A stretch of DNA of 64,000 nt. Origin: Trichlorobacter ammonificans (GTDB lineage: Bacteria; Desulfobacterota; Desulfuromonadia; Geobacterales; Pseudopelobacteraceae). The translations under genes were made by a program, and so were the position numbers. This document shows, piece by piece, positions 7,745-17,146 of this stretch (its first letter is position 1; each line of letters starts with the position of its first letter). The stretch lies in NCBI RefSeq assembly GCF_933509905.1, contig NZ_OW150024.1, positions 856,001-920,000 of the forward strand, in the 5' to 3' direction. The notes beneath the pieces were generated by a model. It was given only the letters and a program-made list of their open reading frames with translations, made no database searches and was not told where the DNA came from.

Positions 7745-8065
7745 TCAGGCCGGGGTCGCAAGTTTTAATCCCACGATACCGGCGACGATCAGCCCAAGAC
7801 TCAGGAGCCGCAAAAAATTTGCCGGTTCACCCAGCAGGACGATGCCGAGTACGGCGGTGCCCACCGCGCCCACGCCAACCCAGACCGCGTATGCGGTACC
7901 GACGGGCAGGGATTTCATTGCCACGCCAAGCAGCCCGAGGCTGACAATCATCGAGAATACGGTAGCAACTGTTGGCCAGAAACGGGTGAACCCTTCGGTA
8001 TATTTTAGCCCAATCGCCCATCCGATCTCAAATAGGCCCGCAACAACAAGAATAAACCAGTTCAT
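7745..8065 (-). CDS. gdx: Cassette 13: Gdx/SugE-type SMR guanidinium exporter
   Basis: The 106-residue product starts [20 protein letters not shown] and has four TM helices. The essential SMR glutamate is Glu13, and the GWAIGLKY context is characteristic of Gdx/SugE rather than EmrE. Gdx proteins exchange protons for guanidinium across the inner membrane as antiparallel dimers. A two-hairpin guanidine-II riboswitch lies directly upstream, which strongly supports guanidinium as the substrate. The 133-residue longer reading frame merely translates the riboswitch and was rejected. This is the last gene of the array. Its TGA stop lies in a GTCAGGCC motif resembling an attC core half, but the rest of an attC is missing. 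Confidence 0.9.
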
Positions 8066-8084
8066 CACATACCTCTCTTTCATG

Positions 8085-8130
8085 CGGGGCCGTCCCCAGT
8101 CGGAGTAGAGAGGTGAGGTCGTCCTCACTT
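8085..8130 (-). promoter_or_regulatory. Guanidine-II (mini-ykkC) riboswitch upstream of gdx
   Basis: Reading the minus strand, two hairpins occur in tandem. The first is GTGAGG-ACGA-CCTCAC (8128 to 8113) with an ACGA loop. The second is GGGG-ACGG-CCCC (8097 to 8086) with an ACGG loop. A short linker joins them, and AGAGAGG, a ribosome-binding site, follows before the gdx ATG at 8065. Two stem-loops with ACGR tetraloops next to a ribosome-binding site are the defining structure of the mini-ykkC class, which senses guanidine. The position fits translational control: guanidine binding would free the Shine-Dalgarno sequence. Confidence 0.85.
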
Positions 8131-8139
8131 CTGGGAAAC

Positions 8140-8267
8140 CTGACATGCACGGGATAACCGGTTGCCAACGCCGGAGCGCTGCTGCTTCTGTTGCCGACCA
8201 ACTGGTAACTGCGGCATAGGTGAAATGCAGCGGCCAGTACGCCGGCCCGGGTTGATTGAGCCGTCAG
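8140..8267 (-). repeat. attC site of cassette 12 (SMR pump)
   Basis: This ~128 bp element matches the array's long attC type, with the CGGATAACCGGTTGCC-like arm at the left and GATTGAGCCGTCAGG at the right. Both core motifs are slightly degenerate (TGAC and GTCAG replace TAAC and GTTAG). It separates the EmrE-like cassette from the gdx cassette. Confidence 0.85.
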
Positions 8268-8271
8268 GCGT

Positions 8272-8604
8272 CTAGTGTGCCGAGGATTTGGAAAAGAGAT
8301 TAAGAACCAGTACGCCCGAAACAATAAGCAGAATGCCGACAATAGCAGGTACGTCAAGCTTTTGCCCCATGAAAATCCAAGCCACAAGAGCAACCAATGC
8401 TGTTCCGGCGCCTGACCAGATGGCATAGGCCATGCCGACCGGAATTGTTTTTAACGTGAGCGACAAGAAGTAGAATGCCGTGGCATAGCCTATGACCACC
8501 AGGCATGACGGCCAGAACTTCGTAAAACCTTCAGCCGACTTTAGCGCAGAGGTAGCGGCGACTTCACTCATGATTGCTACGGCAAGATAGCCCCATTTAT
8601 GCAT
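8272..8604 (-). CDS. Cassette 12: EmrE/QacE-like small multidrug resistance protein
   Basis: The 110-residue protein starts [22 protein letters not shown] and carries the essential Glu14 in the EmrE-type context ([10 protein letters not shown]), followed by [12 protein letters not shown] and three more TM helices. EmrE/Qac proteins are proton-coupled exporters of lipophilic cations such as quaternary ammonium compounds. No riboswitch is visible upstream, unlike the neighbouring Gdx cassette. An AAAGGA ribosome-binding site precedes the ATG at 8604. The same reading frame is open upstream through the attC into the previous cassette up to 8973, so a 233-residue fusion is formally possible. SMR genes are frequent integron cargo. 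Confidence 0.9.
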
Positions 8605-8628
8605 TCGATCGATCCTTTCTCCGTAACG

Positions 8629-8756
8629 CCTGACGTTCGCGAGATAGCCGGCTGACAGTGCCGGAGTAGTGCTGTTTGAATTGCCCGCCAACCGACGATT
8701 GCGGCATAGATGAATTCGGCGCACAGCAAGCCGGTCCGGGGTAATTGAGCCGTTAG
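8629..8756 (-). repeat. attC site of cassette 11
   Basis: This is a long-type attC of about 128 bp. On the plus strand it reads CGCCTGACGTTCGCGAGATA at the left and TTGAGCCGTTAGC at the right. It contains no in-frame stop for the reading frame that joins cassettes 11 and 12. Confidence 0.85.
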
Positions 8757-8757
8757 C

Positions 8758-8973
8758 AAGACGAGTAGCCTGTTTGCGCATAATACGCGCAAGGCTAGGC
8801 ATTTGCCTAAATTCCGTCTTGTAGGGCTCTGGTACACCAATATCTCGGCAAAAGGGTACGGTGGCGACTTTTTCAAGCAATGCCGTGTTCTTAAGAACTT
8901 GGTGCTGAAGCAATGAGCGGCGTAGCTTGCGGAGAGCGGCTGTTTTTACAGCATTTCTGATTTCTTCAATCAT
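8758..8973 (-). CDS. Cassette 11: short ORF without a stop before its attC
   Basis: From ATG 8973 the frame encodes [20 protein letters not shown] and about 72 basic, helix-rich residues before entering the attC site. There is no stop codon in this stretch: the frame continues through the attC and fuses with the SMR pump. I do not recognise the sequence. It may be a gene fragment whose native stop was lost when the cassette formed, or a small protein with an attC-encoded tail. The coordinates give only the part outside the attC. Its cassette boundary is the GTTAGGC complementary to 8987-8993. Confidence 0.35.
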
Positions 8974-8986
8974 TGTTGATTGAGTG

Positions 8987-9056
8987 GCCTAACATAGAGC
9001 TGACCGGCGCTGCGCGGCTTTATCGCGCAGCGTCCAAGGTGACAGCCGGGTTGGGC
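8987..9056 (-). repeat. attC site of cassette 10 (DUF4260), short type
   Basis: This ~70 bp site runs from GCCCAAC to GTTAGGC on the minus strand with an imperfect palindromic body (CGCTGCGCG and CGCGCAGCG). It is much shorter than the ~128 bp sites in the rest of the array. The DUF4260 reading frame ends inside it. Confidence 0.75.
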
Positions 9057-9442
9057 GTAGAGACAGAAAGCCGCCCTATGCGGCCCAGGTGCGTAAAGCC
9101 AAAGCCCTCTGAGTACTTGAGCCCATACCCAAGTGCCCGGTCAAAGCCGATGTGAGCGCCCCAGATGACTCCGGCGCAAAGGACTGTCGGTGCCGGAAGA
9201 ATAATACCAGCGGCAAGGCAACCGACAACCCCAATGTATGAGTGTGCCAAGTTGTAACTAGCGGCACCAACCTTTGGGGCTGCGAGGTAACCAAAGCATG
9301 AAAGGTCCGGCGCAAGAAAGAACAGTGCGAAAGCACCCCAGCCAAAGCCGAGCTGTGAATAGGCGACCACAGCTGCTACGAACACACACAATCCCTCGAG
9401 CCGCAGCACGAGACGTACGCCACCAGAATTTGCTCCAGACAC
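9020..9442 (-). CDS. Cassette 10: DUF4260 family integral membrane protein
   Basis: A GTG start gives VSGANSGGVRLVLRLEGLCV and about 140 residues. It is chosen because AAGGAGG lies five bases upstream and because the longer TTG-started frame runs back into the preceding attC. Diagnostic DUF4260 features are visible: LEGL near the N-terminus, FLAPDLS in the middle, YNLAHSY, and WGAHIGFDRALGYGLKYSEGF near the end. Several hydrophobic helices place it in the membrane. Its function is unknown. The C-terminal tail after THLGRIG is encoded by the attC site. Confidence 0.8.
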   Translation of the reverse strand: MSGANSGGVRLVLRLEGLCVFVAAVVAYSQLGFGWGAFALFFLAPDLSCFGYLAAPKVGAASYNLAHSYIGVVGCLAAGIILPAPTVLCAGVIWGAHIGFDRALGYGLKYSEGFGFTHLGRIGRLSVSTPNPAVTLDAAR

Positions 9443-9459
9443 AGGAGCCTCCTTATGTA

Positions 9460-9514
9460 CAACGCCTGAATTAAGCCGTGCCACGAAGTGGCGTCGGCTT
9501 GAATGAATTGTTAG
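9460..9514 (-). repeat. attC site of the beta-lactamase cassette, short 59-be type
   Basis: On the minus strand the site begins GCCTAACAATTCATTCAAGC, has GCCACTTCGTGGC in the centre, and ends CGGCTTAATTCAGGCGTTGT. This closely resembles the aadA-like 59-base elements of mobile integrons and differs completely from the ~128 bp sites in the rest of the array. Confidence 0.88.
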
Positions 9515-9518
9515 GCCC

Positions 9519-10367
9519 TCAATCAAGAATACCGAGATCCTTCAGGATCCTCCGGGTGATGGGAATCCGCTCATCGTAGGCGCGGCCGTACTCCGGGGCA
9601 CCGAGTTGTATGGCGAAATAGTAGACGTTTTTGTTCTTTTCGACGTAGCCTACGTACCAATTCGACGTTTCTTCTCCATTGGGCTGGCAAGCTCCTGTTT
9701 TTGCGCTTAAACGCCACCGCTGCGTTTCCTCGGCCAGCATGATCTCTTTGGTCAGCCGGGTGGTCCGTTCCGACAGCCCGAGCCGTTCTTCGTAGAACGC
9801 CCGAAGGAACTCGACCTGCTCGTTCGGCGAGATACGCAGGCTTCCATCAACCCAGAATGGACCCTGAAGTCCCCCGCTCGCATCGGCATTCCCGTATCCA
9901 AACTGTTCCAGGAACCGCTGTGACGATTCAAGGCCGAGCATCAATGCCATCTGCCGGTAGTACCACATTGCCGATGCCTTGAAGGCCGACTGGAGGTCAA
10001 AGTTACGTGCCCAGTGGGCTGGCTGGTTGAATGACGAATCATATGCGAGCGTGTGTGCGGGATCACGAGCGGTTTCACTCTCGATCAGGATCGCCGTATT
10101 CGGAATTTTGAACGTCGAGCAGGGGGCGAACCGTTCGTTTGCGCGGTCCGCGTGGTAGCGGACGTAACGCTCACTGGCGGCGTCGAGCAAGACGAAGGTA
10201 CCGTTGAGTCCAGCGAAGTAGCCACTCAGATCCGGTGCGGTATCGATGCCCTGTTCTTGCCCCAAAGCACCGGCACGCTCGTTCGAGTGCGCATAACCAA
10301 CCATAATCGTGGAAGTGATCGCGATGGCGATCACGACTGCGGTGGGAACCTGCATCAATCGCCTCAT
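9519..10367 (-). CDS. Cassette 9: class D (OXA-type) serine beta-lactamase
   Basis: The product is about 282 residues with an N-terminal signal region (MRRLMQVPTAVVIAIAITST). Class D motifs are present: the nucleophile STFK at about residues 84-87, SAM at 132-134, YGN at 158-160, FWVDGSL in place of the usual FWL, and KTG at 223-225. The SxV motif has Met instead of Val/Ile, which is unusual. The enzyme hydrolyses beta-lactams in the periplasm with a carboxylated lysine general base. Start choice is uncertain: ATG 10355 has a better Shine-Dalgarno (GAGG), while 10367 keeps two Arg for the signal peptide. ATG 10388 lies in the attC. The substrate range cannot be read from sequence. Confidence 0.92.
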   Translation of the reverse strand: MRRLMQVPTAVVIAIAITSTIMVGYAHSNERAGALGQEQGIDTAPDLSGYFAGLNGTFVLLDAASERYVRYHADRANERFAPCSTFKIPNTAILIESETARDPAHTLAYDSSFNQPAHWARNFDLQSAFKASAMWYYRQMALMLGLESSQRFLEQFGYGNADASGGLQGPFWVDGSLRISPNEQVEFLRAFYEERLGLSERTTRLTKEIMLAEETQRWRLSAKTGACQPNGEETSNWYVGYVEKNKNVYYFAIQLGAPEYGRAYDERIPITRRILKDLGILD

Positions 10368-10377
10368 TATCGTCAGC

Positions 10378-10505
10378 CTAACGTTCACGAGATAACCGGC
10401 TGGCGATACCGGAGTGGTGCTGCTTGACTAACCTGCCAACTGAAGACTGGGGAACTGGTCAAATTCAACGCGCAGTAAGCCAGTCCAAGTTGATTGAGCC
10501 GTTCG
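10378..10505 (-). repeat. attC site of cassette 8 (HicAB)
   Basis: This ~128 bp long-type site has CCTAACGTTCACGAGATAAC at the left and TTGATTGAGCCGTTCG at the right. The outer core is GTTCG rather than GTTAG, which may weaken recombination on that side. Confidence 0.85.
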
Positions 10506-10529
10506 GGACTGGATAGCTGAGGTGGTTGA

Positions 10530-10856
10530 TTAGGAGGCATGTGCCAGAACATCGGATGCCCACTGGTTTATGCTTACGCCATGAGCCTGTGCCATCATTG
10601 CGGCCCTGGCGTGAACCTCTGGAGGTACACGTAGCATGAGCTTACCTGAATAAGGCTTTTGCGGAGCCCGTCCCAGCTTCTCACAGGTGGCAAGATAGTC
10701 GTCAACTGCCTCTTCAAAAGCCGCTCTCAACTCTTTAACGGTTTCGGCATGGAAACCGATAACATCTTTGATGCCGGCAATATGTCCGATAAAGCATGCA
10801 TCGTCGTCACTATATTCGATTCTTGCAGCATACCCCTTGAATGTCATGGTGCTCAT
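10530..10856 (-). CDS. hicB: Cassette 8: HicB-family antitoxin
   Basis: The 108-residue protein has the HicB degraded RNase H-like fold at residues 5-60: FKGYAARIEYSDDDACFIGH, then a helix with ELRAAFEEAVDDYLATCE. A ribbon-helix-helix DNA-binding region follows (GKLMLRVPPEVHARAAMMAQ and SINQWASDVL). HicB binds and neutralises the HicA mRNA interferase and represses the operon. The start overlaps the hicA stop by 4 bp (ATGA), so the two genes are translationally coupled. Both lie in one cassette, in the hicA-hicB order usual for the family. Confidence 0.9.
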   Translation of the reverse strand: MSTMTFKGYAARIEYSDDDACFIGHIAGIKDVIGFHAETVKELRAAFEEAVDDYLATCEKLGRAPQKPYSGKLMLRVPPEVHARAAMMAQAHGVSINQWASDVLAHAS

Positions 10857-11107
10857 GGTTTTACTCCCGCGCTCTCCAGGAACGTTTTGGCGTCTTTAAC
10901 TTGATATGGTTTGGCCTCTTTTGCCGGGTGTGGCCGATGAAAGGTAGCAATAATGCCGTTTAGCTCAAACCTGACCCTTGAGCCGTTGCCTTCAATTGTT
11001 TGTGCACCGAGTGTGACGAATAGCGACTCGATTTTTCTCCACTCCAAAGTTGCTGGAACAGGAAGTGAAAAAATAGCAAGCAACGTGGTGCGGTGAGATT
11101 TATTCAT
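10853..11107 (-). CDS. hicA: Cassette 8: HicA-family mRNA interferase toxin
   Basis: The 84-residue product resembles HicA: EWRKIESLFVTLGAQTIEGN, then GSRVRFELNGIIATFHRPHP, and a C-terminal KPYQVKDAKTFLESAGV. The His in ATFHRPHP corresponds to the catalytic HxPHP-type motif of the dsRBD-like HicA fold. The toxin cleaves mRNA in the absence of HicB. Toxin-antitoxin cassettes are thought to stabilise long integron arrays. It is a little longer at the N-terminus than minimal HicA proteins, and the start has only a weak ribosome-binding site. Confidence 0.87.
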   Translation of the reverse strand: MNKSHRTTLLAIFSLPVPATLEWRKIESLFVTLGAQTIEGNGSRVRFELNGIIATFHRPHPAKEAKPYQVKDAKTFLESAGVKP

Positions 11108-11170
11108 GGGTTAAGGTTACCAAAGAGTTTGCAGTGATGCAATCAGATATTGATATCATGGCCGTGGTCC

Positions 11171-11298
11171 CTAACGTGTACGAGATAACCGGCTGGCGGA
11201 GCCGGAGCGGTGTTGCCTGAACTGCCGACGAACTGACGACTGCGACATTGGTGAAATTCAGCGCGCAGTAAGCCAGTCCGGGTTGATTGAGCAGTTAG
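11171..11298 (-). repeat. attC site of cassette 7 (toxin-antitoxin)
   Basis: This ~128 bp long-type site reads CCTAACGTGTACGAGATAAC at the left and TTGATTGAGCAGTTAG at the right. Confidence 0.88.
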
Positions 11299-11307
11299 AA
11301 GCGCGAT

Positions 11308-11839: not shown

Positions 11840-11869
11840 GCGTAGGCGGGTGGTGCTGTAAGATGAAAT

Positions 11870-11988
11870 CTAACGTTCACGAGATAAGGGGCTGGCGTAG
11901 ACGAAGCTCCAGAAACACCGAAAGTGCGATATGTACCCTGCCAAAATTCAGCACCCAGCTAGCCAGTCCCACTTGATTGAGCCGTTAG
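11870..11988 (-). repeat. attC site of cassette 6 (DUF3024)
   Basis: This long-type site is slightly shorter, at about 119 bp. It has CTAACGTTCACGAGATAAGG at the left and TTGATTGAGCCGTTAGG at the right. The interior is the most divergent of the long sites (ACGAAGCTCC replaces the common CGGAGCGG region). Confidence 0.85.
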
Positions 11989-12009
11989 GTGGTAGCGCAG
12001 GCATAAAGG

Positions 12010-12357: not shown

Positions 12358-12371
12358 GTGTTTGGGACCAC

Positions 12372-12499
12372 CTAACGTGTACGAGATAACCGGCTGACGA
12401 TGCCGGAGCGGTGCTGTCTGAACTGCTGATCAACTAACGACTGAGACATTGGTGAAATTCAGCGCACAGTAAGCCAGTCCGGGTTGATTGAGCCGTTAG
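12372..12499 (-). repeat. attC site of cassette 5 (HAD protein)
   Basis: This ~128 bp long-type site reads CCTAACGTGTACGAGATAAC at the left and TTGATTGAGCCGTTAGG at the right. Confidence 0.88.
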
Positions 12500-12521
12500 G
12501 GAGCTGGCGGCTAAGAAATGG

Positions 12522-13097: not shown

Positions 13098-13113
13098 ATT
13101 CCCTCCTGACTCC

Positions 13114-13240
13114 CTAACGTTTACGAGATAACCGGCTGGCGACGCCGGAGCGGTGCTGCTTGCTAACCTGCCAACTGACGATTGCGGTATAAGCGAAATT
13201 GCGCGGACAGTAAGCCAGTCCGGGTTGATTGAGCAGTTAG
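13114..13240 (-). repeat. attC site of cassette 4
   Basis: This ~127 bp long-type site reads CCTAACGTTTACGAGATAAC at the left and TTGATTGAGCAGTTAGG at the right. The stop codon of the cassette 4 ORF is part of the core TTAG. Confidence 0.88.
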
Positions 13241-13611
13241 GGTTGTGATGAAACAACTGCACTTACCATTAATTTGATAATTGAGTAAGTTGCGTAGCCA
13301 ATGACGCACGAAATGGCCCCAGATAGGATTCTCTGGCCATTCGAGGTTTTGGGCCAAGAAAAACCGATAAACTTTATTTGCCAGAAAAATGCAATGTAAT
13401 AGTTAAACATTGCCATGAAACTTATTGCCAATAATGTGTATGCAACGACAGAGTGTGTCTTGGTTGCTACAAACTGAATCGCTGCAAGAGTAATAGCCCA
13501 CCGAAGCCAGTCAAAAATGCGTGGTGTTGCATTTAGCCAAAAAGTATCCCAAGAACATATCCATTCGTATTCGCTTTTCTTGGCGGTTATGTCTACTTTG
13601 ACTGCGTCCAT
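13237..13611 (-). CDS. Cassette 4: small integral membrane protein of unknown function
   Basis: This is a 124-residue protein with a hydrophilic N-terminus ([20 protein letters not shown]) and three to four hydrophobic segments at about 35-50, 54-77 and 96-118. Trp-rich stretches ([18 protein letters not shown]) flank the first helix. No family is recognised. The TAA stop falls in the attC core. The upstream ribosome-binding site is weak, as in several cassettes. It could be an effector or a stress protein of the membrane, but no function is claimed. Confidence 0.6.
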
Positions 13612-13623
13612 AATTGTAAGACC

Positions 13624-13751
13624 CTAACGTGTACGAGATAACCGGCTGGCGACGCCGGAACGATGCCGCCTGAACTGCCGACCAACTGACTACTGCGACA
13701 TTGGTGAAATTGTGCGGACAGTAAGCCAGTCCGGGTTGATTGAGCCGTTAG
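13624..13751 (-). repeat. attC site of cassette 3
   Basis: This ~128 bp long-type site reads CCTAACGTGTACGAGATAAC at the left and TTGATTGAGCCGTTAG at the right. Confidence 0.88.
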
Positions 13752-13755
13752 ATTT

Positions 13756-14565: not shown

Positions 14566-14584
14566 TTATACCCCCGTAAAAAAT

Positions 14585-14712
14585 CTAACGTTCACGAGAT
14601 AACCGGCTGGCGATGCCGGAGCGGTGCTGCCTGACTAACCGACTAACTGACGACTGAGGAACTGGTGAAATTGAGCGCACAGTAAGCCAGTCCGAGTTGA
14701 TTGAGCCGTTAG
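14585..14712 (-). repeat. attC site of cassette 2
   Basis: This ~128 bp long-type site reads TCTAACGTTCACGAGATAAC at the left and TTGATTGAGCCGTTAGG at the right. It supplies the TAA stop codon of the cassette 2 ORF. Confidence 0.88.
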
Positions 14713-15062
14713 GCAAGTATGAACTTCTGCCAGTCAATTTTGGCCCAACCTAAAGACGGAATTGCTGAAATTGGTGGTATGGATGAAATTGCAGGAATCG
14801 GCGCTATTGCTGGGATTGGTGGAATTGGTGGTATAGATGGAATTGGCAGTATGGGGCCGCCTGTTGCGCCTTTCGTGAAAGCAACAACACCGCCTTTGTG
14901 GTCGCGGAATAATCCTTTTTTGTATACACCCAGATGCTGCCCACGATGCCCGTAAACATTGTCTCCTTTTGTAATTGCAGCGTGCTTGCCATCAAGGTGA
15001 TAGATATTATTGTCTTTGTGCCACGCTACGACTTTGCCTTTTCGGTTGTAAATAGGTTCCAC
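14709..15062 (-). CDS. Cassette 2: 4-fold beta-flower protein with a Pro-Ile repeat tail
   Basis: A GTG start with an AAGGAG site gives 117 residues. Residues 1-68 show a repeating beta pattern typical of the 4-fold beta-flower domain: PIYNRKGKVVAWHKDNNIYH, then GDNVYGHRGQHLGVYKKGLF and RDHKGGVVAF. Residues ~70-103 are a low-complexity tract with Pro or Ile at nearly every position, in units such as IPSIPPIPPIPAI, ending SLGWAKIDWQKFILA. The repeat could form an extended polyproline-like stalk or anchor. The domain's function is not established. The stop codon is provided by the attC core. Confidence 0.65.
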   Translation of the reverse strand: MEPIYNRKGKVVAWHKDNNIYHLDGKHAAITKGDNVYGHRGQHLGVYKKGLFRDHKGGVVAFTKGATGGPILPIPSIPPIPPIPAIAPIPAISSIPPISAIPSLGWAKIDWQKFILA

Positions 15063-15083
15063 GGCGACTCTCCTTTTTGAGGC

Positions 15084-15213
15084 CTAACGTGTACGAGATA
15101 ACCGGCTGGCGATGCCGGAGTGGTGCTGCTTGACTAACCGACCAAAACAGACGACTGAGAAACTGGTGGAATTCAGCGCACAGTAAGCCAGTCCGAGTTG
15201 ATTGAGCCGTTAG
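15084..15213 (-). repeat. attC site of cassette 1 (VRR-NUC)
   Basis: This ~130 bp long-type site reads CCTAACGTGTACGAGATAAC at the left and TTGATTGAGCCGTTAG at the right. It is the attC closest to the integrase. Confidence 0.88.
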
Positions 15214-15224
15214 AAACCGCAATT

Positions 15225-16013: not shown

Positions 16014-16034
16014 GTCATTGTCCAGATGTGGCTT

Positions 16035-16100
16035 CTAACGTGTATTAGACACCCTAAATTTTTGTTAAAAACGTCAAATTATATAAAAACATCTGATGCA
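16035..16100 (-). promoter_or_regulatory. Probable attI site and cassette promoter region
   Basis: The cassette boundary core GTTAGA lies on the minus strand at 16039-16034, followed by the first cassette. The adjacent ~60 bp up to the integrase side is the expected position of attI. It contains a TATAAT hexamer on the minus strand (16083-16078) in AT-rich DNA, a candidate -10 of the cassette promoter. The matching -35 (TTACAA, spacing about 20) is poor. The extent of attI cannot be fixed by eye. Confidence 0.55.
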
Positions 16101-16171: not shown

Positions 16172-17146
16172 ATGGAAAACCAGCCTGCCAAACCAAAGCT
16201 TCTGGATCAGATTCGTGATCGTATCCGCCTGAAGCATTACAGCCGTAGAACAGAGGATGTCTACGTCGACTGGGCGAAACGTTTCATACTGTACCATAAC
16301 AAACGGCATCCGCAAGAGATGGGAAAACAGGAGATTGAAGCGTTTCTCACTTGGCTTGCCCGTGACCGGCAGGTGTCGGCTTCAACCCAGAATCAGGCCA
16401 AGGCAGCGCTGCTGTTTCTGTACAAGGAAGTGCTGGATATGACGTTGCCCTGGCTTGGTGAGGTGGAGCAGGCCAAAAAGCCCCGGAAGATGCCGGTGGT
16501 GTTGACCGAGCGTGAAGTGCAGGTGCTGTTGTCACAACTGCCTGATGCCTGGTTGCTGCTTGGGCGCTTGTTGTATGGGACAGGGCTACGCCTGCTGGAG
16601 GGGCTGCGACTTCGGGTTCAGGATGTTGATTTCAGCGCAAACCAGATTCTGGTCCGCGACGGTAAGGGGGGCAAGGATCGGGTGACTATGTTGCCGCAGT
16701 TGCTGATTCTGCCGTTGAAAGACCATCTACTGCGGGTTAAACAGGTACATGAACACGATCTGGCGGCGGGGTATGGCGAGGTCTGGCTGCCGGAAGGGCT
16801 GGCCCGCAAGTATCCCAATGCGGGGCGTGAGTGGATCTGGCAGTATGTCTTTCCCTCGGCGCGGTTGTCGGTTGATCCCCGTTCCGGTGTGACACGGCGG
16901 CATCACTTGGATGAAAAGGGATTGCAGCGGGCGATCCGGCAGGCTGCTGCCGATGCCGGGCTGAGCAAGAAGGCAACGCCCCATACCCTGCGTCATTCCT
17001 TTGCCACGCATCTGTTGCAATCCGGCTATGATATCCGTACCGTGCAGGAGCTGCTGGGACATAAGGATGTGCAGACTACGATGATTTATACCCATGTGCT
17101 AAATAAGGGCGGCAGAGGGGTTGTTTCGCCGCTGGATAGAATATGA
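16172..17146 (+). CDS. intI: Integron integrase (tyrosine recombinase, IntI)
   Basis: The 324-residue protein has a SAM-like N-terminal core-binding domain (about 8-95, [19 protein letters not shown]-like) and a catalytic domain. Active-site residues are Arg140 ([13 protein letters not shown]), Lys in GKGGKDR (about 165-168), His271-x-x-Arg274 ([10 protein letters not shown]), His297 ([10 protein letters not shown]) and nucleophile Tyr306 (MIYTHVL). The IntI-specific insertion around residues 211-235 ([20 protein letters not shown]) distinguishes it from XerC/D. It recombines attI with attC sites. The gene is intact and divergent from the cassette array, the usual integron layout. No obvious LexA-type operator was found upstream. 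Confidence 0.96.

Follow-up and report, generated by a model that had tools for sequence, protein, structure and literature searches.

Where resistance cassettes originate is still under debate, and attC types have been put forward as markers of the taxa that supply them. Many clinical resistance cassettes are thought to have been supplied by the chromosomal integrons of the Xanthomonas/Luteimonas group. In the Xanthomonadales-like (XL) clade of attC sites (Ghaly et al. 2021, PMC8352920), the attCs of aadA1, aadA7, catB3, qacF, qacI and aadB are assigned to Xanthomonadales, 99.4% of Xanthomonadales-like chromosomal sites are found in Xanthomonadales, and mobile integrons appear to have obtained their XL-type attCs from Xanthomonadales. 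Resistance cassettes held by Luteimonas and Lysobacter include gar, catB3, qacI and relatives of IDC-1 (PMC7085159, PMC8352920, PMC7148499); exact copies of the gar cassette occur in Luteimonas sp. 83-4 (PMC7085159), and the nearest chromosomal relatives of the IDC-1 cassette are in Luteimonas/Lysobacter (PMC7148499).

The cassette described here, which carries a class D (OXA-type) beta-lactamase gene in a chromosomal integron of Trichlorobacter ammonificans, shares with the XL clade a 60 bp attC that forms the same hairpin with a 3-nt terminal loop, but this site lies in the integron of another class and accompanies a class D enzyme unknown in mobile integrons. Like gar and IDC-1, it is a resistance-type cassette tied to Luteimonas/Lysobacter; however, those two specify other enzymes and came from clinical isolates or environmental-DNA integron surveys, whereas the OXA cassette belongs to the chromosomal integron of a bacterium of another class. 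Judged by sequence, the product would be a class D serine beta-lactamase encoded on a gene cassette, as in the OXA-2, OXA-10 and OXA-46 families of mobile integrons, but its amino acid identity to plasmid-borne class D enzymes is at most about 38%, and 32.7% to OXA-21 (OXA-2 family). Very probably, an intact class D cassette was captured by the sedentary chromosomal integron of the host from Xanthomonadales/Lysobacteraceae, or from a close XL-bearing lineage, and not from a clinical class 1 integron. Integron cassettes and class D enzymes are already known, and what is new here is modest, namely an undescribed OXA cassette and a case of cross-class flow documented by gene plus attC.

Arrangement of the chromosomal integron

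The window, which is the whole 64,000 nt stretch that was analysed, contains a complete chromosomal integron with an IntI gene, an attI core and a leftward array of 12-13 cassettes on the minus strand. The integrase gene (16172-17146, plus strand) is full length, predicts a 324 aa protein (TIGR02249, 482.7 bits) and is divergent from the cassettes. The attI core (CACGTTAGAAGCC; 16030-16042, minus strand) forms the first cassette boundary, and the far end of the array, at about 7745, is a SugE-type SMR gene (7745-8065, minus strand), downstream of which no attC was found.

Twelve attC sites were placed, all on the minus strand. Ten, of 123-134 bp, form one set of similar long sites, and the other two are the attCs of the OXA cassette (60 bp) and of a cassette encoding a DUF4260 protein (70 bp). 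The long sites of cassettes 1 to 7 are located at 15082-15215, 14583-14714, 13622-13753, 13112-13242, 12370-12501, 11868-11990 and 11169-11300. The eighth (10376-10507, 132 bp) belongs to a toxin-antitoxin cassette (10530-11107, minus strand; HicB 10530-10856 and HicA 10853-11107), which is the upstream neighbour of the OXA cassette; the latter starts with the final 6 bases of this long site. The remaining two long sites are at 8628-8758, after a short-ORF cassette, and at 8138-8269, after a qac-type SMR gene.

When the R'' of each attC was compared with the R' from the 5′-end of the same cassette, 7 of 7 bases paired in cassettes 1-6, the OXA cassette and the qac-type cassette, with 6 of 7 in the two toxin-antitoxin cassettes and 5 of 7 in cassettes 10-11. 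Contamination is very unlikely, since the assembly consists of one 3.06-Mb contig in which the OXA cassette sits amid genus-type attCs. Hopanoid synthesis genes in this genome would be in keeping with the class Desulfuromonadia. An earlier note on this DNA had proposed an OXA-type beta-lactamase cassette inside a long-attC array, with the array's own long attC on the upstream neighbour, and both parts of that description hold: an intact reading frame (9519-10367, minus strand) and its attC (9457-9516) lie in the chromosomal integron, next to the HicA-HicB cassette with its long site.

Class D beta-lactamase gene of cassette 9

The gene of cassette 9 (9519-10367, minus strand) is intact and encodes a 282 aa protein with a signal peptide-like N-terminus. 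The start codon is the ATG at 10367, and an alternative GTG at 10388 falls inside the preceding attC. The protein matches PF00905 (E 7e-31) and carries the class D motifs S84-T-F-K87, S132-A-M, Y158-G-N, W172 and K223-T-G; the second of these, SAM at 132-134, has Met where Val is usual (S-x-V). It scores 199.2 bits against the main class D model, below the curated cut-off of 250 bits, which is a naming threshold (NCBIfam) and not a property of class D itself, and it is far below every named OXA family. As the model scores are sub-threshold, the protein was assigned at class level only.

The BlaR1 family model scores the protein at 190.7 bits, little less than the class D value and likewise below its curated cut-off, and the gene might on that account specify a sensor like BlaR1, or a transpeptidase sharing this fold, rather than a beta-lactamase. 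This is unlikely, as a 282 aa protein with a short signal-like N-terminus is too small to hold the BlaR1 membrane/protease domain as well, the class D motif set is full, and the predicted fold resembles OXA-48-type enzymes, with a target-normalised TM-score of up to 0.93. The AlphaFold model has a pLDDT of 83, and the top Foldseek matches are all class D. OXA-48, Shewanella BlaA (PDB 6nlw) and PDB 6n1n and 6nhs are the nearest solved structures by fold or sequence, aligning in fold at 32-35% identity, but the window protein differs from them as a separate subfamily with SAM for SxV and KTGA after KTG. On sequence and predicted fold, cassette 9 is predicted to encode an undescribed class D beta-lactamase. 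Were it expressed, the protein would be expected in the periplasm, as a serine beta-lactamase acting through S84 and a presumably carbamylated K87. No promoter-like site was detected within the cassette, and the one candidate nearby does not exceed what shuffled sequences yield.

Six genomes of the same genus have another class D gene on the chromosome (33-36% identical), on other contigs or far from attC arrays, and the window's genome is without it. A native origin within the genus was rejected on these grounds, the genus class D genes being only 33-36% identical and away from attC arrays. Viral carriage was also discarded: a pattern scan of IMG/VR gave no relative, and phage records hold only distant class D genes (top 31%).

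The 60 bp attC and the question of a mobile integron source

The OXA cassette extends from TTAGGC within the R' of the preceding HicAB attC (10376-10507) to its own attC at 9457-9516 (minus strand), which is 60 bp long, of XL and aadA type, and in circular form reads GCCTAACAATTCATTCAAGCCGACGCCACTTCGTGGCACGGCTTAATTCAGGCGTTAGGC. All seven bases of the R'' of this site (GCCTAAC) pair with the R' of the same cassette (GTTAGGC). A single gene in the orientation of the array together with this pairing identifies the unit as an integron cassette. The hairpin is strong (z = -6.2), none of 200 shuffles folding as well. Against a covariance model built here from 11 other XL sites, 3 from Luteimonas saliphila and 8 from plasmids, and distinct from the published model, the OXA site, which was excluded from the model, scores 72.8 bits (E = 8e-19).

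Sites with 80-95% identity to the OXA attC were found in 3652 plasmid records, none of which attains 95%. Among them are sites adjoining qacF, sat2/aadA1, aac(6')-IIa, catB3, aadA16 and fosE, with 3-5 mismatches in the 46-bp core, and the description of the attC as aadA-like in the earlier note is thereby borne out. Closer cores occur in Lysobacteraceae chromosomes, the best match being 45/46 there versus 43/46 on plasmids; the core has no exact copy in 340 Lysobacteraceae genomes, where the best has one mismatch in 46. One attC of Luteimonas saliphila is 57/60 identical to the OXA attC in circular form. The XL type of an attC cannot by itself discriminate Xanthomonadales from mobile integrons.

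Environmental bacteria can receive class 1 integrons, and with the 80-95% identity to the sites of many plasmid-borne resistance cassettes this would allow the OXA cassette to have come in via a mobile (class 1-3) integron. Such an entry is very unlikely. The protein is less than 38% identical to any protein encoded in 72,556 plasmids, no DNA similar to the OXA gene was found in the E. coli genomes searched, and none matching the Luteimonas copy was found on plasmids. The window's IntI is at most about 57% identical to integrases on Proteobacteria plasmids, the nearer attCs are in Lysobacteraceae chromosomes, and the two known copies of the gene differ by a dS of about 0.49, which is too old for spread in the clinical era. 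A mobile-integron origin was accordingly rejected on gene identity and dS.

A decayed relative in Luteimonas saliphila

A peptide-pattern scan of 84,980 species returned a single close relative of the OXA protein, in Luteimonas saliphila (Lysobacteraceae/Xanthomonadales; 83% amino acid identity), which belongs to another class than the host. The gene was detected in only one of 345 Lysobacteraceae genomes. It is a decayed cassette there, in which an XL attC (37.9 bits) ends exactly at the 5′ boundary of the gene; a more decayed XL attC (17 bits) follows the gene, and beyond it is an apparently truncated cassette that we take, from reading the sequence, to encode a HIT-protein. Elsewhere the genome has dense, intact XL attC arrays, and its integron integrase is 59% identical to the window's IntI.

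The two OXA genes share 85.6% nucleotide identity, with dN 0.08, dS 0.49 and dN/dS of about 0.16. They are under purifying selection, and a dN/dS near 0.16 indicates that, over the greater part of the time since they diverged, both have been maintained as functional proteins. A dS near 0.5 is, at usual substitution rates, far older than clinical integrons.

At one locus of Luteimonas saliphila, two XL attCs are 112 bp long (486-597 and 1690-1801), the terminal hairpin being lengthened by an inverted repeat of about 50 bp.

Distribution of attC types and of the gene in the host class

A model of the long attC was built from this array and run on 274 genomes of the host class. Sites were detected in 14 of 15 genomes of the same genus; beyond the genus, the family yielded a single strong site and the order a single weak one. 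Strong matches to the XL model are present in 112 of 149 Lysobacteraceae genomes, where a genome often has 20 or more. In the host class, sites above 65 bits number nine, the OXA site included, and are confined to 7 of 274 genomes at one or two per genome, which gives a rough frequency of XL sites for this class. In at least one of these genomes, an integron integrase gene lies next to the two XL sites. The OXA gene itself is present in only one of 277 genomes of the class, that of the window. Given one carrier in 277 genomes of the host class and one in 345 of Lysobacteraceae, the actual donor is a lineage still to be sampled.

Since a few members of the class carry XL-type sites (7 of 274 genomes, one of the sites in the host's family), convergence or native diversity could have given rise to an XL attC within the array or the class, and the cassette would then not be foreign. 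We consider this extremely unlikely. Such sites occur once or twice per genome in the class versus dozens in many Lysobacteraceae, the host genus has its own 130-bp attC type, and the OXA attC matches the Luteimonas saliphila site at 57 of 60 positions. The isolated sites of the other genomes suggest instead that single XL cassettes turn up in the host class as apparent imports. In the six other genomes concerned, single or paired XL attCs adjoin unrelated genes (cyclase-like, GNAT-like and hypothetical).

A point against the preferred source is the GC3 of the OXA gene, which at 0.67 fits neither host genes (about 0.83) nor the Luteimonas flanks (about 0.80-0.85); cassettes 1-8 are at 0.35-0.49, and the Luteimonas copy is at 0.74.

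Probable origin and capture of the cassette

Gene and attC independently give the same answer on source, and together these sequence comparisons point to the Xanthomonadales chromosomal-integron pool. The earlier note's proposal that a resistance-type cassette had entered from another integron pool is thus sustained as to foreignness, the attC being nearly absent from the class and the gene confined to one of its 277 genomes, but fails as to a mobile or clinical source, from which plasmid proteins at <38% identity separate it. Its label of a mobile-integron attC is misleading, and its other option, an environmental source, is better supported by the cassette relative in Luteimonas and the nearest attCs in Lysobacteraceae chromosomes. 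Gene and site differ in their distance from mobile sequences, and the cassette is not shared among close relatives, the reverse of what the note had named as counting against it.

The cassette has its own XL attC, which argues that it was ready-made on arrival rather than a gene that gained a host attC in place. Cassette DNA, free or transferred, would have been taken up by the host; IntI would then have acted on the 60-bp attC, folding and cutting its bottom strand, and inserted the cassette at attI, and later insertions would have displaced the cassette to the ninth position, some 6 kb away from attI. From the anatomy of the array we infer this IntI-mediated insertion and burial. The direction from the Xanthomonadales pool to the host appears probable from the sequence comparisons, two gene copies being no proof of direction.

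With capture from this pool as the preferred reading, XL cassettes are seen here to pass from the chromosomal integrons of one class to those of another, and the data searched gave no hint of plasmid or clinical involvement. There is about an even chance that a functional, undescribed class D family circulates between environmental classes, pre-clinically, as a cassette with a clinical attC type, and that XL cassettes regularly enter non-Xanthomonadales integrons; if so, a resistance cassette would have been caught before any clinical appearance. On its sequence, the OXA protein is a candidate enzyme to look for in surveillance databases.

Other cassettes of the array

Cassette 10 (9020-9442, minus strand), which encodes the DUF4260 protein (PF14079, 5e-41), ends in an attC (8987-9056, minus strand; 70 bp, 5/7 pairing) that is neither of the long nor of the XL type. 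It represents a third type with a strong hairpin and is possibly a second import. As this site is also not of the long type, a detail absent from the earlier note, the array consists of ten long sites and two foreign-looking ones. Long attC 6 (11868-11990, 123 bp) has a shorter and diverged middle with the outer arms intact.

Two SMR efflux genes are adjacent at the distal end of the array (7745-8604), the Qac-type gene with a genus-type attC and the SugE-type gene with none found behind it. The Qac-type gene of cassette 12 (8272-8604, minus strand) shares no more than 69% identity with qac genes carried on plasmids. Its cassette has a variant core (8138-8269 and 8628-8634), R' being GTCAGGC and R'' GCCTGAC, in which both sides are changed and pairing is still 7/7.
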